Below, in pieces: positions 43,349 through 55,087 of a DNA stretch of 64,000 nt. The stretch is from NCBI GenBank assembly GCA_947450225.1, contig CANFUO010000002.1, positions 35,882-99,881 on the forward strand, written 5' to 3'. The notes beneath the pieces were generated by a model that did not search any database, had not been told where the DNA came from, and saw only the letters and a list, made by a program, of their open reading frames with translations. The translations under genes and the position numbers were made by a program. The stretch's first letter is position 1. The number at the start of each line of letters is the position of its first letter. This DNA comes from Burkholderiaceae bacterium. Its GTDB lineage: Bacteria; Pseudomonadota; Gammaproteobacteria; Burkholderiales; Burkholderiaceae.

Positions 43349-44332
43349 ATGACTCCAAAAAAACACAATATCGCCCGATTTTTCATCAGTTTTATGTTTA
43401 TTTTGCCTGGTTTACTGAACCAGGTTTTAGCTGATACTTATCCTTCTAAAACTATCGTTATTGTGGTTCCTACTTCTCCAGGAGGGGCTAATGATGCCAT
43501 GGCAAGAATTATTGCCCAAGGTCTTAGCCAAAAACTTGGTCAACCCGTTGTTGTAGAAAACCGCGCTGGGGCTAATGGTGCTATTGCGAGTGAGTTTGTT
43601 GCGCGTGCTCCTGCTGATGGCTATACCTTAATGTTTGGCTATATTGCAACCCATGCAATTAATCCTGCATTGCAAAAACTACGTTATGACCCCATTAAAA
43701 GCTTCGAACCTATTTCATTGGTTGCCACTTCTCCAACACTGGTTGTAGCGAATAACAATTTACCTATTAAAAACGCCAAAGATTTAGTGGCGCTTCTAAA
43801 AACCCAACCAGGGAAAATTTCTTACGCATCTTCTGGCAAGGGCACCGCCCCTCACCTCAGTGGCGAACTTTTTAAATTAAATACTGGGACAGATATGCTT
43901 CATGTGCCATATAAGGGTTCATCTCCAGCCATTTTAGATACGATTGGTGGGACAACCCAAGTGATGTTCCCCAGCTTATTTACAGCCTATCCTCAAGTGA
44001 AAGGTAATAAATTAATCGCTCTGGGAATCGCCGGGAAAAAACGCTCGCCAGTATTGCCTAATGTGCCTACACTAGCTGAACAGGGTATCCCTAATGTAGA
44101 AATCGATCAATGGTATGCCATGTTTGCTCCTGCTGGCACACCAAAAGCCATTATTCAACTGTTAAATAAAGATTTAATTGCTGTTTTAAATGAAAAATCA
44201 AATGAATCAAAAATTGAGGAGCAAGGAGCCACTGTAGACACATCAACTCCCGAAGAACTCGGCGAACTTGTAAAAAAAGAAGTTGCGCGTTGGAAAAAAG
44301 TAGTCGACTCTGCAAAAATAACCGTGGATTAA
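43349..44332 (+). CDS. Bug/TctC family substrate-binding protein
   Basis: YPSKTIVIVVPTSPGGANDAMARIIAQGL; VVENRAGANGAIA. Confidence 0.93.
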   Translation: MTPKKHNIARFFISFMFILPGLLNQVLADTYPSKTIVIVVPTSPGGANDAMARIIAQGLSQKLGQPVVVENRAGANGAIASEFVARAPADGYTLMFGYIATHAINPALQKLRYDPIKSFEPISLVATSPTLVVANNNLPIKNAKDLVALLKTQPGKISYASSGKGTAPHLSGELFKLNTGTDMLHVPYKGSSPAILDTIGGTTQVMFPSLFTAYPQVKGNKLIALGIAGKKRSPVLPNVPTLAEQGIPNVEIDQWYAMFAPAGTPKAIIQLLNKDLIAVLNEKSNESKIEEQGATVDTSTPEELGELVKKEVARWKKVVDSAKITVD

Positions 44333-44334
44333 TT

Positions 44335-45066
44335 ATGTCAAATCAAACTCTTTCTGTTATCACATCTGGTGCCTTCGCTGCCGCACTTAAACTTCTTGCC
44401 CCTATGTATGAAAAAAAATCTGGGCATACAGTAAAGCTCTCTTTTGGGTCTTCTATGGGTTCAGCGCCTGACTCCATTCCAACGAGACTGAGTCAAGGAG
44501 AGGTCTTTGATGTTCTGGTATTAGCAGGTCCAGCGTTAGATCATTTTATGCTTCAGGGGGTGATTTCTTCGGGATCTAAAGTTGATTTAGCTGGTTCAAA
44601 AATGGCAGCTGCGGTTCGCTCAGGTGAGCCTGTCCCAGATTTATCAAATGTGGATTCTTTTAAACACACCCTACTGCATACCGCTCGTATTGCATACTCT
44701 GCTAGTGCTAGTGGCACTTATTTGTCTGAGGAGATCTTTCCTCGGCTAGGAATTGCAGACCAGATGGCCATTAGCGCAAAAAAAATCTTTGGGGAACGCG
44801 TTGGTACTATCTTGATGCGTCATGAAACTGATCTTGGGTTTCAACAATACTCAGAATTACTTCCGATTGCAGGGATTGATATTATTCGTGATCTGCCACC
44901 TGAAATTCAGAAAACGTTTTTCTTTTCCGCAGGTATCGGCGTAAAAAGCGCACAGTTGTCTCTTGCGCAAGAGTTTATCGCCTATTTAGCCTCTGAAGAA
45001 GCCGCTCCTACAGTAAGAGAAACAGGGCTAGACGCTGTTTTATCCTCTCTGCCCTGGAAGTCATAG
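44335..45066 (+). CDS. ModA-like type 2 periplasmic-binding-fold protein without recognisable signal peptide
   Basis: LSVITSGAFAAALKLLAPMYEKKSGHTVKLSFGSS; start MSNQTLS 3 bp after Bug stop. Confidence 0.8.
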   Translation: MSNQTLSVITSGAFAAALKLLAPMYEKKSGHTVKLSFGSSMGSAPDSIPTRLSQGEVFDVLVLAGPALDHFMLQGVISSGSKVDLAGSKMAAAVRSGEPVPDLSNVDSFKHTLLHTARIAYSASASGTYLSEEIFPRLGIADQMAISAKKIFGERVGTILMRHETDLGFQQYSELLPIAGIDIIRDLPPEIQKTFFFSAGIGVKSAQLSLAQEFIAYLASEEAAPTVRETGLDAVLSSLPWKS

Positions 45067-45173
45067 TCTTCTTAATTCAGTGGAAACACTCATAGGCTAA
45101 TTACCTATAGATTGCAACAATTTTCTCCATTACATTAGCTTACTATTAATTTATCTAAGATAAGGCTTTTGTC

Positions 45174-45482
45174 ATGGCAATTCTTTGTGTCAATGGACAA
45201 TTTGTTGAAGTTGCCGCAAATCCGAGTACTCCATTAATTTGGATACTAAGGGAACAACTTGGCCTAATAGCCACTAAATACGGCTGTGATAACTTCGTAT
45301 GTGGAGCCTGCTCAGTGGTGGTTAATGGGAAAACAATCCGCTCTTGTTCATTCCCTTTAAGTTCTATTAATGAAGGTGATGAAATCATGACGGTCGAAGG
45401 CTTTTCAAATCAGAATCAAGCCATCTCAAAACAATTGCCAGTTTCAACTGTAAATTTTAAGGTCGCTCTTGATGCTGGATAG
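45174..45482 (+). CDS. Stand-alone plant-type [2Fe-2S] domain ORF, probably truncated hydroxylase small subunit
   Basis: GCDNFVCGACSVVVNGKTIRSC; lacks the C-terminal CGYC...CRCG domain seen in 51162..51635. Confidence 0.6.
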   Translation: MAILCVNGQFVEVAANPSTPLIWILREQLGLIATKYGCDNFVCGACSVVVNGKTIRSCSFPLSSINEGDEIMTVEGFSNQNQAISKQLPVSTVNFKVALDAG

Positions 45483-45852
45483 CGTCGTCTAATATTTCAT
45501 GCCATTCTGCTTTACTGCCTACAAAGATATGCGCTCCAACTTTTTCAGAAATACGATCATCTAATGTTCCCAAACGAACACGCATGATGAGGGGAGTAGT
45601 CTCTCTTTGACTATATAGTTGTGAACCACAATGCGAACAGAAAAAACGATCTACTGCCCCGGGATTTGGGTAGCGCTTAATCAAATCTTGACCTTCTATT
45701 ACCTCAAAATCGGCTCGACTAATTTCTGTTGATGTAACAAACGCAGATCCACTCGACTTTCGACAACGCTGGCAATGACAATAAATAATTGGCCCTAATT
45801 GATGATGAATCTGGTATTTAATACCTCCACATAAACAACTTCCTCGTATCAT
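45457..45852 (-). CDS. GFA family (glutathione-dependent formaldehyde-activating enzyme-like) protein
   Basis: GSCLCGGIKYQI; CHCQRCRKSSGSAF; FFCSHCGSQLY. Confidence 0.9.
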   Translation of the reverse strand: MIRGSCLCGGIKYQIHHQLGPIIYCHCQRCRKSSGSAFVTSTEISRADFEVIEGQDLIKRYPNPGAVDRFFCSHCGSQLYSQRETTPLIMRVRLGTLDDRISEKVGAHIFVGSKAEWHEILDDAIQHQERP

Positions 45853-47246
45853 GATGCCTCCTTGATGAATGCTGTTGGGGGTAAGCGTCGATGCCAATCG
45901 GTCTGTGTTTGATATGCATGCGCAATCGTAAGTAGCTTGTCTTCGGAGAAATCACGCCCAACTAATTGAAAGCCAACGGGCATTCCTTGTTCCGAAAATC
46001 CTCCGGGTACGCTTATTGAAGGATAACCTAAATAATTCATCGCTTTCGTAACGTGAGTCAATCGCCCGACACCTTTGAGAACATCTTCTAAGCTGCCTCG
46101 AGTACTTCCCTCAATAGACGGGGTATGCACTTGAATCGTTGGAATAAATAACACATCACAGGTGCCAAAAACTTTTTCATCAAATTGCTGACGATAAAAC
46201 TTCCGCATGTCTAGTGCTTTTCGGTAATCTTCATCAGAGTATTGATATCCTAATTCAATCCGAGCTCGAACTTGATCCGCATAGTCTTCACTGCGCTGCT
46301 TTAACCATTCATGATGGACTTCTAGCGCTTCCACTGCCATAACAATGGCCATCATGTCATTGATTGGTTGCATTAATGGATTATCGATGTCAACTATGTG
46401 CATTCCTAAGGCTTTAAAAACTGGAATGTTTTCAAGAAGTACGTCTTGTATGTTTGTATCTAGACCTTCCCAAAAATAATGTTGAGGTATGCCTACTTTG
46501 AAGCCAGCTACTGAACTTGATAGGCTGAGTTCGTAATTCTTATCTTGGTGTGTGAGTACGGTTAACATCTTCGCACAGTCCCTAGCACTTTGAGCCAATG
46601 GTCCAATACAATCCAGTGTATGCGCTAACGGAAATGTTCCTTCAATATTGACGAGCGCACTCGTTGGCTTAAGTCCTGTAACTCCACACATTGTTGCTGG
46701 ATGACGTATGGAGCCTCCGGTATCACTGCCAATCGCTCCAAATACTAGACGCGCACTAACTGCAATAGCAGATCCACTGGAGGAGCCTCCACAGACCATT
46801 TTTTCATTCCAAGGATTTTTTGCATGCCCATAATGCCGGTTAAATCCTGTCGGCCCGAGCGCAAACTCAGTCATGTGCAAAGAACCACAATACACCTGTC
46901 CTGCCGCCTCAAAATAATCCATCACCACTGCATTTTTTTCTGGGATATTTTTCTTTAAAATTTTAGAACCGATATGCGCGCTTCTACCTGCCATCAAAAT
47001 TAAATCTTTATGGGCAAATGGAACGCCATGAAGCATCCCTAGGGGGCGATGATGCGCCTGTAAATCATCCAAAACATGGGCGCGCTTGAGAGCACTTTCT
47101 TCATCTAATCGAAAAACCGCATTAAGTGTCCCCCCAATTTTTTTTAATCGTTGAATTGACCACTGCGTTAATTCGTATGAACTAATTTTTTTGTCTTTGA
47201 TGGCATCAACCGCAGTGCATAAATCCCAATGCAAAATATCATTCAT
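45849..47246 (-). CDS. Amidase signature family enzyme
   Basis: FAHKDLIL; GGSSSGSAIAVSARLVFGAIGSDTGGSIRHPA. Confidence 0.93.
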   Translation of the reverse strand: MNDILHWDLCTAVDAIKDKKISSYELTQWSIQRLKKIGGTLNAVFRLDEESALKRAHVLDDLQAHHRPLGMLHGVPFAHKDLILMAGRSAHIGSKILKKNIPEKNAVVMDYFEAAGQVYCGSLHMTEFALGPTGFNRHYGHAKNPWNEKMVCGGSSSGSAIAVSARLVFGAIGSDTGGSIRHPATMCGVTGLKPTSALVNIEGTFPLAHTLDCIGPLAQSARDCAKMLTVLTHQDKNYELSLSSSVAGFKVGIPQHYFWEGLDTNIQDVLLENIPVFKALGMHIVDIDNPLMQPINDMMAIVMAVEALEVHHEWLKQRSEDYADQVRARIELGYQYSDEDYRKALDMRKFYRQQFDEKVFGTCDVLFIPTIQVHTPSIEGSTRGSLEDVLKGVGRLTHVTKAMNYLGYPSISVPGGFSEQGMPVGFQLVGRDFSEDKLLTIAHAYQTQTDWHRRLPPTAFIKEAS

Positions 47247-47247
47247 A

Positions 47248-48126
47248 TTATTCTGGATAAGCTTGGTTGTACCAATTGTAGATTTCTTCTCCATTCATAT
47301 GCACAACGCCTTCATGACGATTAATATGCTCATACACCTTTTTAAGGTAAGCAATTCTAAACGGCATACCACTAATATATGGATGTATCGCTATCGATAA
47401 AATTTTGGGGCGCTCTTGTGCTTCCATGTAATATTGATCAAAGGTATCGATACATTTTTGTGTCCAATAATTAGCTTCATGGTGCTGCACAATCATCATT
47501 GGTATATCGTTATTTTCGACGGTATAGGGAAGTGTTACTAATGATCCACTTTCTGTCTTAATGCGGGTTGGCTCATCATCGTAAGGAAAATCACCTACAT
47601 ATTTCACGCCAGCTTTGGCTAATAAGTCAGGGGTTTCAAATGTTTGTGTCAATCCAGGCCCTAACCAACCAACTGGTCGTTTACCTGTAAATGTCTCAAT
47701 CGTGTTCATTGATTTTGCAATCATCTCTGCTTGATTTTCGACTTTATGAATCGGCATCTGCTCATACGAATGCCCCATAAATTCCCAACCAGCATCTAAA
47801 CATGCCTGTGCTACACGGGGATAGTCTATGCAGACCCTGGCATTTAATGCTAATGTTGGTTTAATATTTAAAGAATCGTATAAGCTTTTAAAACGCCAAA
47901 ATCCTACGCGCATACCGTATTCATGCCATGCCCAATTTGGCACATCCGGAAGTAATGGAACACCAGTAGGCGCAGGGATGACTTGCCTTGCCATGGGTCT
48001 TGATATATCCCAAACTTCTAAATTAACAATACTCCAAACAATCACCTTCGCCCCCCCAGGAAACTTCAGTGGTGGACGATCGACGATTGCAGAGAATGGG
48101 GCTCTTTCAGAGGGTTGCATTGACAT
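47248..48126 (-). CDS. Polysaccharide deacetylase-fold hydrolase (PuuE allantoinase/cyclic imide hydrolase-like)
   Basis: KFPGGAKVIVWSIVNLEVW; WEFMGHSYEQM; GWLGPGLTQTFETPDLL; IAIHPYISGMPFR; start trimmed to MSMQPSERAP. Confidence 0.75.
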   Translation of the reverse strand: MSMQPSERAPFSAIVDRPPLKFPGGAKVIVWSIVNLEVWDISRPMARQVIPAPTGVPLLPDVPNWAWHEYGMRVGFWRFKSLYDSLNIKPTLALNARVCIDYPRVAQACLDAGWEFMGHSYEQMPIHKVENQAEMIAKSMNTIETFTGKRPVGWLGPGLTQTFETPDLLAKAGVKYVGDFPYDDEPTRIKTESGSLVTLPYTVENNDIPMMIVQHHEANYWTQKCIDTFDQYYMEAQERPKILSIAIHPYISGMPFRIAYLKKVYEHINRHEGVVHMNGEEIYNWYNQAYPE

Positions 48127-48137
48127 ACATTTACTTT

Positions 48138-48815
48138 CTATAACGGGGTTGAACGATAAGACTGAAAACCTTGTTGAATAATTTGCTGCAAAGTGCAATA
48201 TAAATATTTTGCACCTTTCTGAGTCAGTTGCTGCTGTGTTTCTAATTGCCCTGGAATACCCCAAATGCGTTGATGCTTTTGTAATTCAAAAATCACGCGA
48301 TCGATGGCGTCCCATAATTGTGGGGATTTTAAATCCCCCTTAAATCCCATACTATGTGAAAGATCATTAGGTCCAATTAAAAAACTATCAACACAGCTAG
48401 ATGCTGCTAATGCTTCAATATTTTGCACGGCTAACTTGGATTCAATCTGAGCAATCGCCATAAATTGATCACGATTACCTTTACTAACATAGTCAATCAC
48501 TTGCGATATTTGCTCGAACTCTTCCAGCGTATCTGTATGGGGAACGACAATACCGTCAATACCGCGATCTAAATAGCGAATTAATGTTTCTGCTTGTTTA
48601 TTTTCGCTTCTGAGCATCGTCAACATACCGTGACTTTTTGCAGCCCGCACAATTGGTCCTACACTTTCAATATGAATCGCTGTTCTTTCACAATCAATAA
48701 AAAGACATTTCGCACCTGCCGCAGCAAGCATGTCCACATTATCCAGAGAGGGGCCACCTACATTAATGGCCCAAGTTAAGGGATGATTCGTTAAATGCAA
48801 TAGCAAAGAATTCAT
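48138..48815 (-). CDS. HpcH/HpaI aldolase/citrate lyase family protein
   Basis: KCLFIDCERTAI; AIAQIESKLAVQNIEAL; FLIGPNDLSHSMG. Confidence 0.85.
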   Translation of the reverse strand: MNSLLLHLTNHPLTWAINVGGPSLDNVDMLAAAGAKCLFIDCERTAIHIESVGPIVRAAKSHGMLTMLRSENKQAETLIRYLDRGIDGIVVPHTDTLEEFEQISQVIDYVSKGNRDQFMAIAQIESKLAVQNIEALAASSCVDSFLIGPNDLSHSMGFKGDLKSPQLWDAIDRVIFELQKHQRIWGIPGQLETQQQLTQKGAKYLYCTLQQIIQQGFQSYRSTPL

Positions 48816-48867
48816 ACTGACCTAGTTATATATGACGGACTTCATCCCTTAATTCACTCTGAACCGA

Positions 48868-51153
48868 TCAAACGATCAACGCCTTTAAACGCGCAGGAGT
48901 TAGTGGGTATTGACGGACTCTCACTTGCGTAGCATTAAAAATAGCATTTGCAATCGCCGCCGGTAATGAAACTAAACCGGGTTCTGCTACCCCACCTGAA
49001 GGTTTATCTGGACGATTGAGCATCACAATATCTACCTGCCCTGGTATATCCTTCATCGAAGCAATACGATAGGTATTCCAATCAACACTTGTAACGCGGT
49101 TATCGTCAAACTTGATCTCTTCATACAAAGCACGACTAATGCCTTGCATAACTTGACCCTCTAATGCCGCTTTAACACCAGCTGGGTTAATAATGAGTCC
49201 ACAATCCATACCAACGACAATACGCTTGACCCATACCCTACCTGTTTTTTTATTGACCTCTACTTCGCATGCTACTGCAGCATAAGACTGGTAGCCGTTA
49301 TACAGTGCTACGCCTCTACCTGTTTGGATGTCACCCGATTTCTTCGGCTTGTAATTACTATCCCAGCCAAATTTTTTAACGACTGCTTCTAAGATCTCTT
49401 TTTCTCTTGGCTCTTGAATGTGTTTTAAACGAAATGCCACCGGGTCCATATTGCCTGCCATCGCAACTTCGTCAATAAAACACTCTTGTGCAAAACGCGT
49501 TTGCATTTCTTGAGGTGCTCTAAGATGCGCAGTTCTTAGCGGCGATGCCTGTTCTACATAAGGTGCAACCGTCTCCCACCAATGCACGTGATTAGCAAAT
49601 TTATAACTTTCCTCAGGAATATTGTAGTTATAAGCTGTCCATTTTTTGTGTCCCGTTTGCATACCTACAAGGGTATGCTCAGGGCTCTCAGCATTAAACT
49701 TAATATCCCAGCCATTAAACCCTTTTGCTTTAAATAACCAGGCTGAAACATTATTTTTATCATCTAAGCCCGCTTTCATAGAAATAATTGCTGCAGGCCC
49801 CTTTGGACTCCACGCAATGCCTTCTTCCCTCGACCACTGCACTCGTACAGGCTGTCCATACTCTTTTGACAATAATGCAGCTTCATAAGGTGCTTCATCA
49901 GCATCTGATCGACCATAAGAACCAGCTCCGTGCATCCATTTTGCTTGCACTATCTCAGGATCAATATTCAAAAACTTAGCAATTCCCTGCCTTTGAAAAT
50001 GTGGCTTTTGTGTATCTGTCCATATTTGCACACTATCACTCTTCACATCAACCACTCCGCAAGAAGGTGCAATGCGGGCATGCGCTTGAAATGGTGCAAA
50101 GTATTCGGATTCAATCACTTTTGCTGAGGTTTTTAGAGCGTCTAATGTAGGTTGTGCGTTGTAGTCTTTCTTACCAAAGAACATGGGCACTGCATTTGTA
50201 AAGGTGGGGGTGGCATTTTTAATGTAGTTATACATCTCTTTATCGCCACCTTTTAATGGACGATTTTCTGTTGTCCATTTAACCTTTAATGCCCGAGCAG
50301 CTCGCACAGCATCCCACTCGGTTTGTGCAACGACAGCGACAAAATTATCTTTATGAAACACTTTTACATTGGGCACAAATGCAACTGAATTTTTATCCAC
50401 TGAAATCACTGAGGCTCCTGCCTGAGGAGGACGAATCGCTCTGCCATGCAAGAGATTGTCAGGACGAATATGCGCTGTGAAGTGCTCTTTTGCTAAGACA
50501 TGATCCTTAATGTCTCTTCTTGCTGCGTCTTTACCTACAATCTTGTAATCTGCTACATTCTTAGGCTTTGCAAGGCCTGTTACATTTAAATCATTGCCAA
50601 TCTTTTTATTCCATTCCAAACTAGTAGAAAATTCTTTATTCGCAATCAGTTGTGCATAGGTGACTGACTTACTTGGATTGTCTTTGATGAAGACTTTTCC
50701 ATCAACAACGTCTAACTGCTCAGGCTTAACCCCTAACTCTTGCGCTGCTAGCCCTACTAAAACTCGGCGTGCCTCTGCGGCTGCATTTCTAATAGGAACA
50801 GCACCTTGACGGATTCCAGAACTCGCACTACCTCCACCTTGATTCGCGGAACTTCTTGTATCGCCAAATAAAACAATCACCTGACTTAATGGTACGTCTA
50901 ACTCTTCTGCAGCAATTTGCGAATAGGCAACGTCTAAGCCTTGGCCGCAATCCATCTTGCCTGAGTTAATAGTCACTAAGCCATCTTTACCTATCTTGAT
51001 CCAAGTATCTAATTGCGATGGGTTAGGGCCCAATATTTTGGGCGCAGCATTTTGCGCAAGCGCGTCAAATGCTGGCAATGCCCCGGATACTCCAACGACA
51101 AGGGCACTAGAACTTTGTAAAAATTCACGTCGTGTAATGTTGGTTGAGTTCAT
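48868..51153 (-). CDS. Tat-signal molybdenum hydroxylase large subunit (isoquinoline/nicotinate dehydrogenase-like)
   Basis: TRREFLQSSSALVVGVSGALPAF; GSASSGIRQGAVPIRNAA; GGVAEPGLVSLPAAIANAIF. Confidence 0.92.
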   Translation of the reverse strand: MNSTNITRREFLQSSSALVVGVSGALPAFDALAQNAAPKILGPNPSQLDTWIKIGKDGLVTINSGKMDCGQGLDVAYSQIAAEELDVPLSQVIVLFGDTRSSANQGGGSASSGIRQGAVPIRNAAAEARRVLVGLAAQELGVKPEQLDVVDGKVFIKDNPSKSVTYAQLIANKEFSTSLEWNKKIGNDLNVTGLAKPKNVADYKIVGKDAARRDIKDHVLAKEHFTAHIRPDNLLHGRAIRPPQAGASVISVDKNSVAFVPNVKVFHKDNFVAVVAQTEWDAVRAARALKVKWTTENRPLKGGDKEMYNYIKNATPTFTNAVPMFFGKKDYNAQPTLDALKTSAKVIESEYFAPFQAHARIAPSCGVVDVKSDSVQIWTDTQKPHFQRQGIAKFLNIDPEIVQAKWMHGAGSYGRSDADEAPYEAALLSKEYGQPVRVQWSREEGIAWSPKGPAAIISMKAGLDDKNNVSAWLFKAKGFNGWDIKFNAESPEHTLVGMQTGHKKWTAYNYNIPEESYKFANHVHWWETVAPYVEQASPLRTAHLRAPQEMQTRFAQECFIDEVAMAGNMDPVAFRLKHIQEPREKEILEAVVKKFGWDSNYKPKKSGDIQTGRGVALYNGYQSYAAVACEVEVNKKTGRVWVKRIVVGMDCGLIINPAGVKAALEGQVMQGISRALYEEIKFDDNRVTSVDWNTYRIASMKDIPGQVDIVMLNRPDKPSGGVAEPGLVSLPAAIANAIFNATQVRVRQYPLTPARLKALIV

Positions 51154-51161
51154 TTTATCCC

Positions 51162-51635
51162 CTATGCTTTCATTGTTTCACGTGCACTTTTAACCGCTCT
51201 TAAAATGGCGATATGCGAACCACAACGACATTGCAAGTTATCCAAACCTTGAATGATTTGCTCATCAGTCGCCCGAGGATTTTTTTCTAATAGCGCAATA
51301 GACTGCATAATCCAGCCATTCGTGCAATACCCACACTGGGCTGCTTGCTCTTGGATAAATGCTGTTTGCATCGGATGTAATTGATTGCCCTGGGCCAATC
51401 CATCTAATGTACGAATTTTTGATGCTGAATTCGCAACTGCACTTGTTGGTGTAACACAAGAGCGTACAGCTTGATTATTGACCAAAACAGTACATGTCCC
51501 ACATTGGGCTAGGCCACAACCAAATCGAGGACCTTTGAATTTCAATTGATCGGTTAATGTATACAATAGTGGCTGATCAGATGGGACATCAACTACGTGC
51601 GTACTCCCATCAATTTGCAAGGTCATTTTGGACAT
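51162..51635 (-). CDS. Molybdenum hydroxylase [2Fe-2S] small subunit
   Basis: GCGLAQCGTCTVLVNNQAVRSC; CGYCTNGWIMQ; LQCRCGSHIAI. Confidence 0.95.
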   Translation of the reverse strand: MSKMTLQIDGSTHVVDVPSDQPLLYTLTDQLKFKGPRFGCGLAQCGTCTVLVNNQAVRSCVTPTSAVANSASKIRTLDGLAQGNQLHPMQTAFIQEQAAQCGYCTNGWIMQSIALLEKNPRATDEQIIQGLDNLQCRCGSHIAILRAVKSARETMKA

Positions 51636-51693
51636 ATTGTCTCCTCATGTTGTTTTATTTTTCTGCTTTTACTATCTTAATACTTTCCTGACT

Positions 51694-52560
51694 TTAGCTG
51701 GGGAAATATTTTGCTAACCATTGAGTGATAACGCCCTCAACCCTTGGGTCTGACTCACCCATCATAAAATGCTCAACATCATCAAATAAATGTAATTCAG
51801 TTGGTTTTTTAGCTAATTTAAACATTTCAATGGACTCTGATGTTGGAGTCACGGAATCAATGGCCGCATGCAAAAGTAGTAAGGGTCTGGGTGCCAACTG
51901 AGCCAATTTTTTTTCAGGCATGAAGTCAAAGATACTTTGTGCTGTGTCTACAGAAAAATCCATCACTGAGTTACTAGGCAATCCTTGTCTTAAGTGCAGT
52001 GGAATTGGAACAATGTCAAAACGCGATACCATCATCGGCTTGCTATGTTCTTTGCGATATGCTTTTCCTGCAGCCAACATATCTGTAAATTTTTGCCATG
52101 CCTCTTTTCCAGGATGCTGACCTTGCAGTTTTCTGTCACCATTCCCCCAACCACCAGCAGAAATAACCGCGCCAACTCTTGGATCATCCCCGCCTGTATA
52201 AATGGCGACTGCCGCCCCAAAACTTGATCCTGATAAGGCAATTTTCTCTGCATGAATTTCGCTTCGTGTTTGCACATAAGTGATCACGTCTTTGGTGTTC
52301 TTGACCTGATCTTCGCAAAGCACCATCCCCAAAGCCCCACCACTCTCGCCGCAAGACTGCATATCAAATCGTAAGGCAAAATACCCTAATTTATTATATA
52401 AAGCACATGGAACTCTTACATTAGCTCCGTCTTTGTTCGACCCAAAGCCATGCAAGACAATGATGCATGGGTACTTTTGTCCTTCAACATAATTACTTGG
52501 ATAATGCAAAATTGCTGAAAGTAAAATGCCATTTGATGGTATGGAAAGATTTTCTTGCAT
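51694..52560 (-). CDS. Alpha/beta hydrolase
   Basis: IIVLHGFGSNKDG; LSGSSFGAAVAI; DDVEHFMMG. Confidence 0.85.
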   Translation of the reverse strand: MQENLSIPSNGILLSAILHYPSNYVEGQKYPCIIVLHGFGSNKDGANVRVPCALYNKLGYFALRFDMQSCGESGGALGMVLCEDQVKNTKDVITYVQTRSEIHAEKIALSGSSFGAAVAIYTGGDDPRVGAVISAGGWGNGDRKLQGQHPGKEAWQKFTDMLAAGKAYRKEHSKPMMVSRFDIVPIPLHLRQGLPSNSVMDFSVDTAQSIFDFMPEKKLAQLAPRPLLLLHAAIDSVTPTSESIEMFKLAKKPTELHLFDDVEHFMMGESDPRVEGVITQWLAKYFPS

Positions 52561-52670: not shown

Positions 52671-53633
52671 ATGAAAATCATTCAAGGCATTGTATTTTTT
52701 ATTGCATTTCTTTCTTCATCTGCATTTTGTAGCGACTATCCATCTAGGCCAATTAAAATTATTCAACCCCTTGGCATTGGTACCCCTGCTGATATTTTCT
52801 CTCGAGCTATCGGACAACAACTTTCTGAAAAATTTGGGCAAGCTGTTATCGTAGAAAATAAAGTAGGTGCTAATGGTGTCATTGGCATGGATGCTTGTGC
52901 AAAAGCCCCGCCAGATGGTTATACGATTTGTATTCCAAGCTTTAGCCAAGTGTCATTAAATCCTGTTGTTTATCCTAATATTCCTTATGAGCCATTAAGG
53001 GATTTTTCTCCAGTGGTATTTGTTGGCTTAATTACATCATCTATCTCAGTGAGCTCTACTCTGCCTGTTAATAACTTAAAAGAGCTCATAGAACTTGCAA
53101 AAGCCAAGCCAGATACGATCAATTGGAGCTCATGGGGCATTGGTAGCTTTTCACATTTATATCTAGCTTGGTTAGAGAGTACTACGGGCGCAAAATTTAA
53201 ACATATTCCCTATAAAACAATTGATCAAGCTCTGACTGCAACTCTGGCAGGTGAAACACAAGTATTTATGAATACCCCAGGTTTGGTGCAACCCCATGTC
53301 AAATCAGGAAAATTAAAGACGCTAGCTATTGCAGGCCCTAAACGTACCCCATTATTACCAGATGTTCCGACACTAAAAGAACAAGGTTTTAATGCGGAGT
53401 TTGTCAGTTGGATTGGTGTCACTGTCCCTGTGGGCACTCCAAAGGAAATTATTCAAAAACTCAATATTGAAATGAATAAAGCGATCGCTGACCCTAAATT
53501 TGTGGAAAAAGTGTTGACACCTGTTTCAGTCGAAGCTGTTGGTGGTACTCCTGAAGAATTTGCGTCTTTTATGAAGTTAGATCGTGAGCTTGCTACAAAA
53601 CTCGCAAAAATCGCGAAAATAAATGCTAACTGA
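52671..53633 (+). CDS. Bug/TctC family substrate-binding protein
   Basis: YPSRPIKIIQPLGIGTPADIFSRAIGQQL; IVENKVGANGVIG. Confidence 0.92.
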   Translation: MKIIQGIVFFIAFLSSSAFCSDYPSRPIKIIQPLGIGTPADIFSRAIGQQLSEKFGQAVIVENKVGANGVIGMDACAKAPPDGYTICIPSFSQVSLNPVVYPNIPYEPLRDFSPVVFVGLITSSISVSSTLPVNNLKELIELAKAKPDTINWSSWGIGSFSHLYLAWLESTTGAKFKHIPYKTIDQALTATLAGETQVFMNTPGLVQPHVKSGKLKTLAIAGPKRTPLLPDVPTLKEQGFNAEFVSWIGVTVPVGTPKEIIQKLNIEMNKAIADPKFVEKVLTPVSVEAVGGTPEEFASFMKLDRELATKLAKIAKINAN

Positions 53634-53638
53634 TTAAC

Positions 53639-55087
53639 CTAAAAAGGGACGTTAGAATTATTACTGGATGTGCTTTTTTGAAATGGTGGAGTATAACCAA
53701 GCGCAAGATTATCAAATTTCGTAAACTCTCCCTGCCATGATAATTTGACTGGTCCTATTGGGCCATTACGCTGTTTACCAATAATGACCTCAGCAATACC
53801 AACAGCATCCGTTTCGGGATGATAAACCTCGTCCCTGTAGATAAATAAGATCACATCAGCATCCTGCTCAATCGCGCCAGATTCTCGCAAGTCCGACATC
53901 ATGGGGCGTTTGTTTTCTCTGTTTTCTAAACTACGATTGAGCTGTGATAATGCCATGACTGGACATTGCATTTCTTTTGCAAGTGATTTTAAGGAACGCG
54001 AAATCTCAGAAATTTCAGTAGCACGATTTTCTGATGGTCCACTTCCTTTTCCTGCCATTAACTGTAAATAATCAATAACAATCAGCCCTACGTTGCCATA
54101 TTTTCTTGCCATTCTTCTCGCGCGAGCTCTTAACTCGAGTGAGTTCAATGAACCTGTTTCATCGATGAGCATTGGTGCTTTTGTTAATAACCCGATAGAC
54201 TGTGTAACACGTGGCCATTCTTCATCGGTCAACTTACCTGTGCGTAGTCGGCCTTGATTCACTCGACCAACTGACCCAAGCATTCTTGCGGCTAATTGGG
54301 TAGCAGACATTTCCATTGAAAAAATTAAAACGGGTAAACCTTCTTTAATAGCAACATGCTCTGCAATATTCATCGCAAAAGATGTCTTACCCATACTTGG
54401 CCGACCTGCAACAATGACTAAGTCGCCTTTTTGTAAACCACTCGTCATTTTGTCTAAGTCAATAAAACCAGTAGCAACACCAGTGATTTCATTTGATCCA
54501 CCGCGAGCATATAACTCTTGTATACGCTCTACCGTTTCTTTCATGAGCACTTCTATCTCATGGAATTCATTTTGGCGACCACCTTCTTGGCCAATCGCAA
54601 GAATGCGAGCTTCCGCTTCATCTAATAAAGTACGAACACCTTTTTCATGAGAAAAAGCTGAGTTGGCAATGCTGTCTGCTGTTTGTATTAAACGCCGCAA
54701 AATACTACGGTCGTTAATGATTTGCGCATAGCCTCGAATGTTGGCTGAACTTGGCGTATTTGATGCTAATTCATTGAGATAGGTTATGCCAAAATTCTCG
54801 GCAATGCCGAAGGATTTTAATTCTTCATGCACCGTGAGAACATCAGCAGGCTTATTGTCGTTGACTAGTTTAGAAATTGCTTGAAAGATGATTGCGTGTT
54901 CAGATCGATAAAAATCAACTTCACGCAATATTGGCGCAACGAAGTCTAAGGAGTTGTTATCCAATAACAAAGCCCCTAAGACAGATTGTTCAGCCTCAAC
55001 AGAATGAGGCGGAACTTTTAATCCTTGAACAGCCCGGTCCTCTTCACCCGTGGGTGTCAGTATTCGGAGCGGGCCTGCTTCAGGCAT
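53639..55087 (-). CDS. dnaB: Replicative DNA helicase DnaB
   Basis: VPPHSVEAEQSVLGALL; AGRPSMGKTSFAMNIA; no intein. Confidence 0.97.
   Translation of the reverse strand: MPEAGPLRILTPTGEEDRAVQGLKVPPHSVEAEQSVLGALLLDNNSLDFVAPILREVDFYRSEHAIIFQAISKLVNDNKPADVLTVHEELKSFGIAENFGITYLNELASNTPSSANIRGYAQIINDRSILRRLIQTADSIANSAFSHEKGVRTLLDEAEARILAIGQEGGRQNEFHEIEVLMKETVERIQELYARGGSNEITGVATGFIDLDKMTSGLQKGDLVIVAGRPSMGKTSFAMNIAEHVAIKEGLPVLIFSMEMSATQLAARMLGSVGRVNQGRLRTGKLTDEEWPRVTQSIGLLTKAPMLIDETGSLNSLELRARARRMARKYGNVGLIVIDYLQLMAGKGSGPSENRATEISEISRSLKSLAKEMQCPVMALSQLNRSLENRENKRPMMSDLRESGAIEQDADVILFIYRDEVYHPETDAVGIAEVIIGKQRNGPIGPVKLSWQGEFTKFDNLALGYTPPFQKSTSSNNSNVPF

Follow-up and report, generated by a model that had tools for sequence, protein, structure and literature searches.

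What do seven closely packed genes with no recognised pathway contribute to the bacterium that carries them? The genes lie on the minus strand at positions 45457-52560 of a 64,000-nucleotide stretch of DNA from a Burkholderiaceae bacterium (assembly GCA_947450225.1, contig CANFUO010000002.1), here called the window. In order of transcription, they encode an alpha/beta hydrolase (ABH), the [2Fe-2S] subunit (FES) and the molybdopterin large subunit (MOL) of a molybdenum hydroxylase, an HpaI-fold protein (ALDO), a PuuE-like hydrolase with the polysaccharide-deacetylase fold (DEAC), an amidase-signature enzyme (AMID) and a small GFA-fold protein (GFA). A preliminary description had read all seven as one catabolic pathway with four steps: hydroxylation of an N-heterocycle, ring opening, deamidation and aldol cleavage. 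We find this scheme to be partly supported and over-extended. The operon is layered, and its core consists of the PuuE-like hydrolase and the amidase.

A layered operon at the dnaB site

The source genome (G000) is an assembly of 2.46 Mb in 173 contigs, from a small betaproteobacterium that resembles Polynucleobacter. All seven open reading frames (ORFs) were intact, and the proposed protein families held in profile searches. The intergenic distances were 58, 8, 52, 11, 1 and -4 bp in order of transcription, in agreement with the expected gaps of about 60 bp or less. The 2 stop/start junctions that had been noted at 47246/47248 and 45849/45852 are both real: the DEAC stop codon (47250-47248) is separated by 1 bp from the ATG codon of AMID at 47246, and the AMID stop and GFA start codons share the sequence ATGA at 45852-45849, a 4-bp overlap with GGAGG upstream. 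The operon span was correctly described, but 3 start codons are better placed further downstream. The likely start of DEAC is the ATG codon at 48126, located 11 bp past the ALDO stop codon, rather than TTG at 48264, and the likely starts of AMID and GFA are at 47246 rather than 47294 and at 45852 rather than 45897, respectively.

The ratios of nonsynonymous to synonymous substitutions (dN/dS, Nei-Gojobori) ranged from 0.009 to 0.12 in the comparisons that allowed a calculation. Because dS was saturated in the majority of all comparisons, the ratios indicate constraint, with purifying selection on all seven genes, rather than exact values. Scans of the operon for promoters and terminators gave nothing above the shuffled background. 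Judging from the order, spacing and conservation of the genes, this is a genuine operon.

A scan of species genomes with DEAC identified 80 loci, onto which all proteins of the window were mapped. The nearest named matches were from metagenome-assembled genomes (MAGs) of Burkholderiaceae and from Polynucleobacter species. In nine loci, the genes were located at a common site between dnaB (53639-55087, minus strand in the window), a fixed chromosomal neighbor, and the genes for ModA-like, TctC, TctC, ABHr, NlpC and PhoH proteins. The gene sets at this site are nested. Loci L056-L058 contained DEAC-AMID-GFA only, L047 contained ALDO-DEAC-AMID-GFA, and L048 contained FES-MOL-ALDO-DEAC-AMID-GFA, while L049-L051 and the window contained all seven genes, in the same order, plus a divergent gene for a TctC-type receptor (52671-53633, plus strand, between the operon and dnaB), which was found where ABH was found. 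Because of these nested gene sets at a single site, we consider DEAC and AMID to be the conserved core. DEAC was the most conserved protein of the operon, with 95% to 96% identity to L048 and L049, and ALDO the least conserved, with 71%. We infer that the series arose by gain rather than by loss of the outer genes. DEAC was absent from all 14 same-genus genomes sampled, and the operon is therefore accessory. The record for L058 is titled Thermoflexus hugenholtzii, but its gene order and match are the same as in the betaproteobacterial L056, and it is probably mislabelled or a mixed bin.

The PuuE-like hydrolase and the amidase

DEAC (47248-48126; 292 amino acids) is a predicted cyclic-amide hydrolase. 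The structures nearest to its predicted model (predicted local distance difference test, pLDDT, 89.7) were 3s6o, 1z7a and 3cl6 of the PuuE group, with template modeling (TM) scores of about 0.8 (0.82 for 3cl6), followed by HpPgdA (3qbu). The PuuE residues N35, E37, H119, D183 and H248 are retained in DEAC. The CE4 metal motif HxxxH is not kept (H119-S-Y-E-Q123): the second histidine is missing, as in PuuE, and DEAC is probably metal-free like PuuE. In sequence comparisons, DEAC scored 86.2 bits against PuuE and 59.6 bits against HpPgdA, a relative of the fungal imidase HxnM. The likeness to PuuE (TIGR03212) in fold, pocket residues and lack of the classical metal motif is set against an identity of only about 25%, different gene neighbors and different specificity segments, since the segments specific to PuuE (TGR-SPNTRRL and a long second loop) are missing from DEAC. 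PuuE itself was recruited from polysaccharide deacetylases, according to the title of Ramazzina 2008, as cited in PMC3084791.

The same genome contains 2 DEAC paralogs of 48% identity, at C2:23062-23922 (L039) and C18:8196-9062 (L040), and a more distant one on contig C153. The first adjoins another amidase gene and a TctC gene, and the second adjoins genes for a three-subunit molybdenum hydroxylase and a Liv transporter.

AMID (45849-47246; 465 amino acids) matched PF01425 at 311.5 bits, above the cut-off, and belongs to the amidase-signature family; the motifs AHKD, GGSSSGS and DTGGSIR, which hold the Lys, cis-Ser and Ser nucleophile triad, are conserved. Fold, pocket residues and family match thus agree with the earlier suggestion of a PuuE-like ring hydrolase next to an amidase. 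By its description, the bacterial imidase and half-amidase route for cyclic imides (Blastobacter) is similar, with ring opening to a half-amide followed by hydrolysis of the amide. Another parallel comes from Aspergillus nidulans, in which the deacetylase-fold cyclic imide hydrolase HxnM opens 3-hydroxypiperidine-2,6-dione and the amidase HxnN acts next, downstream of the nicotinate hydroxylase HxnS (PMC9304392). Unlike the operon, the Hxn pathway is eukaryotic, its ring is first reduced by other enzymes, and no counterparts of ALDO, GFA and ABH have been reported (PMC9304392).

An HpaI-fold protein with arginine in place of the catalytic histidine

The predicted model of ALDO (48138-48815; 225 amino acids) has the HpcH/HpaI fold, with a TM score of 0.87, and resembles the class II pyruvate aldolases HpaI and GarL (2v5k, 4b5s, 1dxe). 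The metal ligands E125 and D151 are invariant, and R69 and Q123 are kept. However, ALDO is shorter and contains the motif FIDCER instead of the D-G-E-H of GarL and HpaI, with Arg44 at the position of the catalytic histidine (His45 of E. coli HpaI). Arginine was present at this position in 18 of 18 other DEAC-linked relatives of ALDO and in 8 of 8 further relatives, and the sole D-G-E-H protein in the comparison set was a stranger with 25% identity. Both His45 and Arg70 are reported to be important for cleavage in HpaI (PMC8560999). Since all near relatives found have arginine instead of the catalytic histidine, the proposed HpaI-type aldol cleavage is doubtful, and on the basis of the residues a plain aldolase activity should be neither assumed nor excluded. 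The invariant change from histidine to arginine marks a clade of HpaI-fold proteins with a chemistry worth measuring.

The molybdenum hydroxylase and the outer genes

MOL (48868-51153; 761 amino acids) has a twin-arginine (Tat) N-terminus (TRREFLQ) and matched PF02738 and PF20256, while FES (51162-51635; 157 amino acids) has 2 domains, Fer2 and Fer2_2, above the cut-offs. With PF00111 and PF01799 also matched above the cut-offs, the pair falls into the molybdenum hydroxylase (xanthine dehydrogenase) family. The best solved relative of MOL was 8gy3 (1.2e-49), the large subunit of an aldehyde dehydrogenase, a type that resembles FES-MOL in combining a [2Fe-2S] subunit and a large subunit with a Tat signal without a flavin adenine dinucleotide (FAD) subunit. 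The operon contains no gene for an FAD or cytochrome subunit for MOL; the lack of a cytochrome subunit gene bears on the comparison with two-subunit Tat-exported molybdenum hydroxylases, of which the isoquinoline oxidoreductase IorAB is one. The closest MOL relatives outside the dnaB site (64%, 55%, 45% and 43% identity), in four other genomes, are accompanied by a FES partner but by neither DEAC nor AMID, and FES-MOL looks like a later addition.

ABH (51694-52560; 288 amino acids), encoded by the first gene, matched Hydrolase_4 above the cut-off and was found solely in the closest relatives of the operon (L049-L051). Its identification as the N-acyl homoserine lactone (AHL) lactonase UilS was rejected (85.8 bits against a cut-off of 400). 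Relatives of ABH on Rhizobium plasmids are located with FAA and Ldh-type genes. GFA (45457-45852; 131 amino acids) recurred solely at the dnaB site and is not an S-(hydroxymethyl)glutathione synthase (TIGR02820; 31.4 against 234.55 bits). FES, MOL, ABH and GFA are best treated as additions with an unproven functional tie to the DEAC-AMID core.

Recurrence of the core in other bacteria

The preliminary description named a lack of shared neighborhood as one finding that would refute it. DEAC, AMID and ALDO do recur together at unrelated sites. A larger cluster in Burkholderiales and alphaproteobacteria combines this DEAC and the unusual aldolase-like protein with a homologous amidase; it also contains genes for an alpha/beta hydrolase, an isochorismatase, an FAA hydrolase, a second DEAC, an ATP-binding cassette (ABC) transporter and often an unrelated molybdenum hydroxylase. 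A 410-amino-acid alpha/beta hydrolase (ABH2), an isochorismatase-family amidohydrolase, or both were encoded in 31 of the 80 DEAC loci, and a LivHMKGF-type transporter, the receptor of which is nearest to urea receptors, in 29. The best solved relative of ABH2 was the nicotine-pathway hydrolase 2jbw, and the isochorismatase was nearest to biuret hydrolase. The fullest layout (L089, L085 and L091) was ABH2-isochorismatase-ALDO-OsmC-DEAC-FAA hydrolase-DEAC2-LivHMKGF-AMID-dehydrogenase-FES. In L065-L067 and L071, the cluster ended with a molybdenum hydroxylase that belongs to another branch and shares about 30% identity with MOL, often with an Amidohydro_2 protein in between. The strains with the wider cluster include Polynucleobacter kasalickyi VK13, P. 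rarus, Limnohabitans 2KL-17 and 2KL-51, and Ramlibacter alkalitolerans.

To count co-occurrences, the DEAC proteins were grouped at 90% identity; many contigs end inside the flanking region, and the counts are therefore lower bounds. Among groups with at least 78% identity to the DEAC of the window, the amidase was present in at least 7 of 7 and ALDO in at least 3 of 7. The numbers were at least 1 of 12 for each protein at 70% to 78% identity and, below 70%, at least 0 of 23 for the amidase and at least 1 of 23 for ALDO. Co-conservation is thus strong close to the DEAC of the window and weaker with distance.

ALDO of the FIDCER type adjoins DEAC in 18 other loci and in genome G255. An independent pass through 399 genomes of the order recovered ALDO relatives in nine, and these were located beside DEAC in G000 and G255. 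In G161 and G208, for which the region was read, ALDO was located away from DEAC and with TctC, and in G208 additionally with a maleate-isomerase-like gene. In the latter genome (L187, G208:C21, approximately 9.6-12.1 kb), a DCER-type ALDO shares its operon with TctC and a protein resembling maleate isomerase/arylmalonate decarboxylase.

No description of the wider cluster or of a pathway for the operon was found in the open-access literature, an absence that is provisional and in line with the earlier statement that no characterized pathway was recognized; the closest leads there were the fungal Hxn pathway and HpPgdA only. A cluster shared between phyla, on Variovorax and Streptomyces plasmids (L146 and L147), encodes an FAA hydrolase, a DEAC2-type hydrolase, an amidohydrolase and transporters of the major facilitator superfamily (MFS) and of the TauE/SafE type. 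For these plasmid neighbors, as for those on Mesorhizobium plasmids and of ABH on Rhizobium plasmids, no characterized pathway was found.

Possible functions of the operon

The explanation that we favor, with moderate confidence, is that the genes form a true accessory operon for catabolism, built up layer by layer around the core pair. In the cytoplasm, DEAC would open the ring of a small cyclic amide, imide or ureide, and AMID would then hydrolyze the open-chain half-amide and release ammonia. Ring opening followed by deamidation is favored because of the HxnM/HxnN precedent. ALDO would act on the carbon skeleton; a C-C or C-O reaction of another kind is more likely for it than simple aldol cleavage of the pyruvate type. 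The large subunit of FES-MOL has a Tat signal, and this probable later addition may work outside the cytoplasm, oxidizing a precursor that is either an N-heterocycle or an aldehyde; ABH and GFA would be peripheral. In other bacteria, an ABC importer and further hydrolases would come with the homologous set. Nothing in the analysis fixes the substrate as the N-heterocycle proposed earlier; maleimides from tetrapyrroles, succinimide, hydantoins and citrazinate-like glutaconimides are attractive on chemical grounds, and the evidence favors none over another. Some observations weigh against the favored explanation. DEAC proteins at 64% to 78% identity are often encoded without an amidase, which shows that DEAC is able to function in different contexts, and close amidase homologs in the 399 genomes are mostly located away from DEAC. 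Moreover, HxnM is related to HpPgdA and to the P. putida imidase AAY98498, and imidases of its type fall closer to the metal-binding branch of HpPgdA (PMC9304392). The nearest relative of DEAC is PuuE instead, so that imide specificity is not established.

The nested series at a single site would also be expected if DEAC-AMID-GFA, ALDO, FES-MOL and ABH had landed in turn behind one promoter at a permissive site, with only DEAC and AMID, perhaps with ALDO, cooperating. Such accretion without a common pathway is an unlikely but serious alternative: relatives of FES-MOL and ABH occur elsewhere in unrelated settings, and genes of these kinds are abundant in the genome, which has 148 TctC matches and about 17 molybdenum hydroxylase large subunits in its 2.46 Mb. 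Against it, the gene order, the spacing and the purifying selection persist among MAGs that have diverged to saturation of dS, and a molybdenum hydroxylase recurs beside DEAC in the wider cluster as well. That non-orthologous enzyme at the cluster end, the gene order and tight spacing, and the fungal breakdown of nicotinate by a hydroxylase, a deacetylase-fold imidase and an amidase would all suit the full four-step route with all seven genes in one pathway, in which an N-heterocycle is hydroxylated by MOL and opened by DEAC, after which AMID takes off the amide nitrogen and ALDO carries out an aldol cleavage of the pyruvate type. We nevertheless regard this route as improbable, given that MOL has a Tat signal and the other enzymes have none, that ALDO lacks the catalytic histidine, and that L047 and L056-L058 contain the core without FES-MOL. 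With GFA bound to one site, ABH confined to the closest relatives and FES-MOL found elsewhere without DEAC or AMID, the idea of seven genes as one conserved pathway is not supported.

DEAC could also be an allantoinase, with AMID acting on a ureide in purine breakdown, as PuuE proteins are its best solved relatives by both sequence and fold. This is highly improbable, since DEAC scores 110.8 bits against the TIGR03212 equivalog cut-off of 424.6, lacks the PuuE-specific segments and coexists with a true PuuE (510 bits) at G000:C61. Hardly credible is a true polysaccharide or peptidoglycan deacetylase in an operon for cell-wall or glycan turnover: the long DEAC ORF matched Polysacc_deac_1 at 24.9 bits, just above the cut-off of 23.1, but no signal peptide was seen on DEAC, the CE4 motif is not kept, the nearest folds are PuuE and HpPgdA-like small-substrate enzymes, and the partner genes encode small-molecule enzymes.

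More tentatively, DEAC-AMID-ALDO may be a reduced form of a widely shared, undescribed system of freshwater and soil bacteria that mineralizes some cyclic amide or imide common in nature and includes a new HpaI-fold reaction. Besides ABH2, isochorismatase, FAA hydrolase, amidase and molybdenum hydroxylase, the system would comprise a dedicated Urt/Liv-type importer, a pair of PuuE-like hydrolases and the DCER-type enzyme of the HpaI fold. If the proposed role of the core is true, evolution has repeatedly turned PuuE-like hydrolases to small cyclic amides other than allantoin, and the cluster conserved in cultivated Polynucleobacter, Limnohabitans and Ramlibacter would offer a route for dissolved organic nitrogen that can be tested. 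The nested series, in turn, suggests stepwise growth of a catabolic operon.

Neighboring genes

On the other side of the operon, convergent genes at 43349-45482 (plus strand) encode TctC, a ModA-like protein and a stand-alone [2Fe-2S] ORF. The ModA-like protein (44332-45066, plus strand) has a solute-binding fold without an apparent signal peptide, and its gene always adjoins the operon site, also in L056-L058. The stand-alone ORF (45174-45482, plus strand; 94 to 102 amino acids) consists of a [2Fe-2S] N-terminal domain and lacks the domain for the second cluster. It is kept in L047-L051, and its 3' end and that of GFA overlap by 26 bp in the window. A first look at the genome gave 152 candidates for TctC, a Bug-type receptor, the highest number among the same-genus genomes listed (others 4 to 146). 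Expansion of TctC is already known, with 434 in Rhodoplanes as one example (PMC5994714), and the receptors Bug27 and Bug69 are reported to bind quinolinate (PMC11452294).

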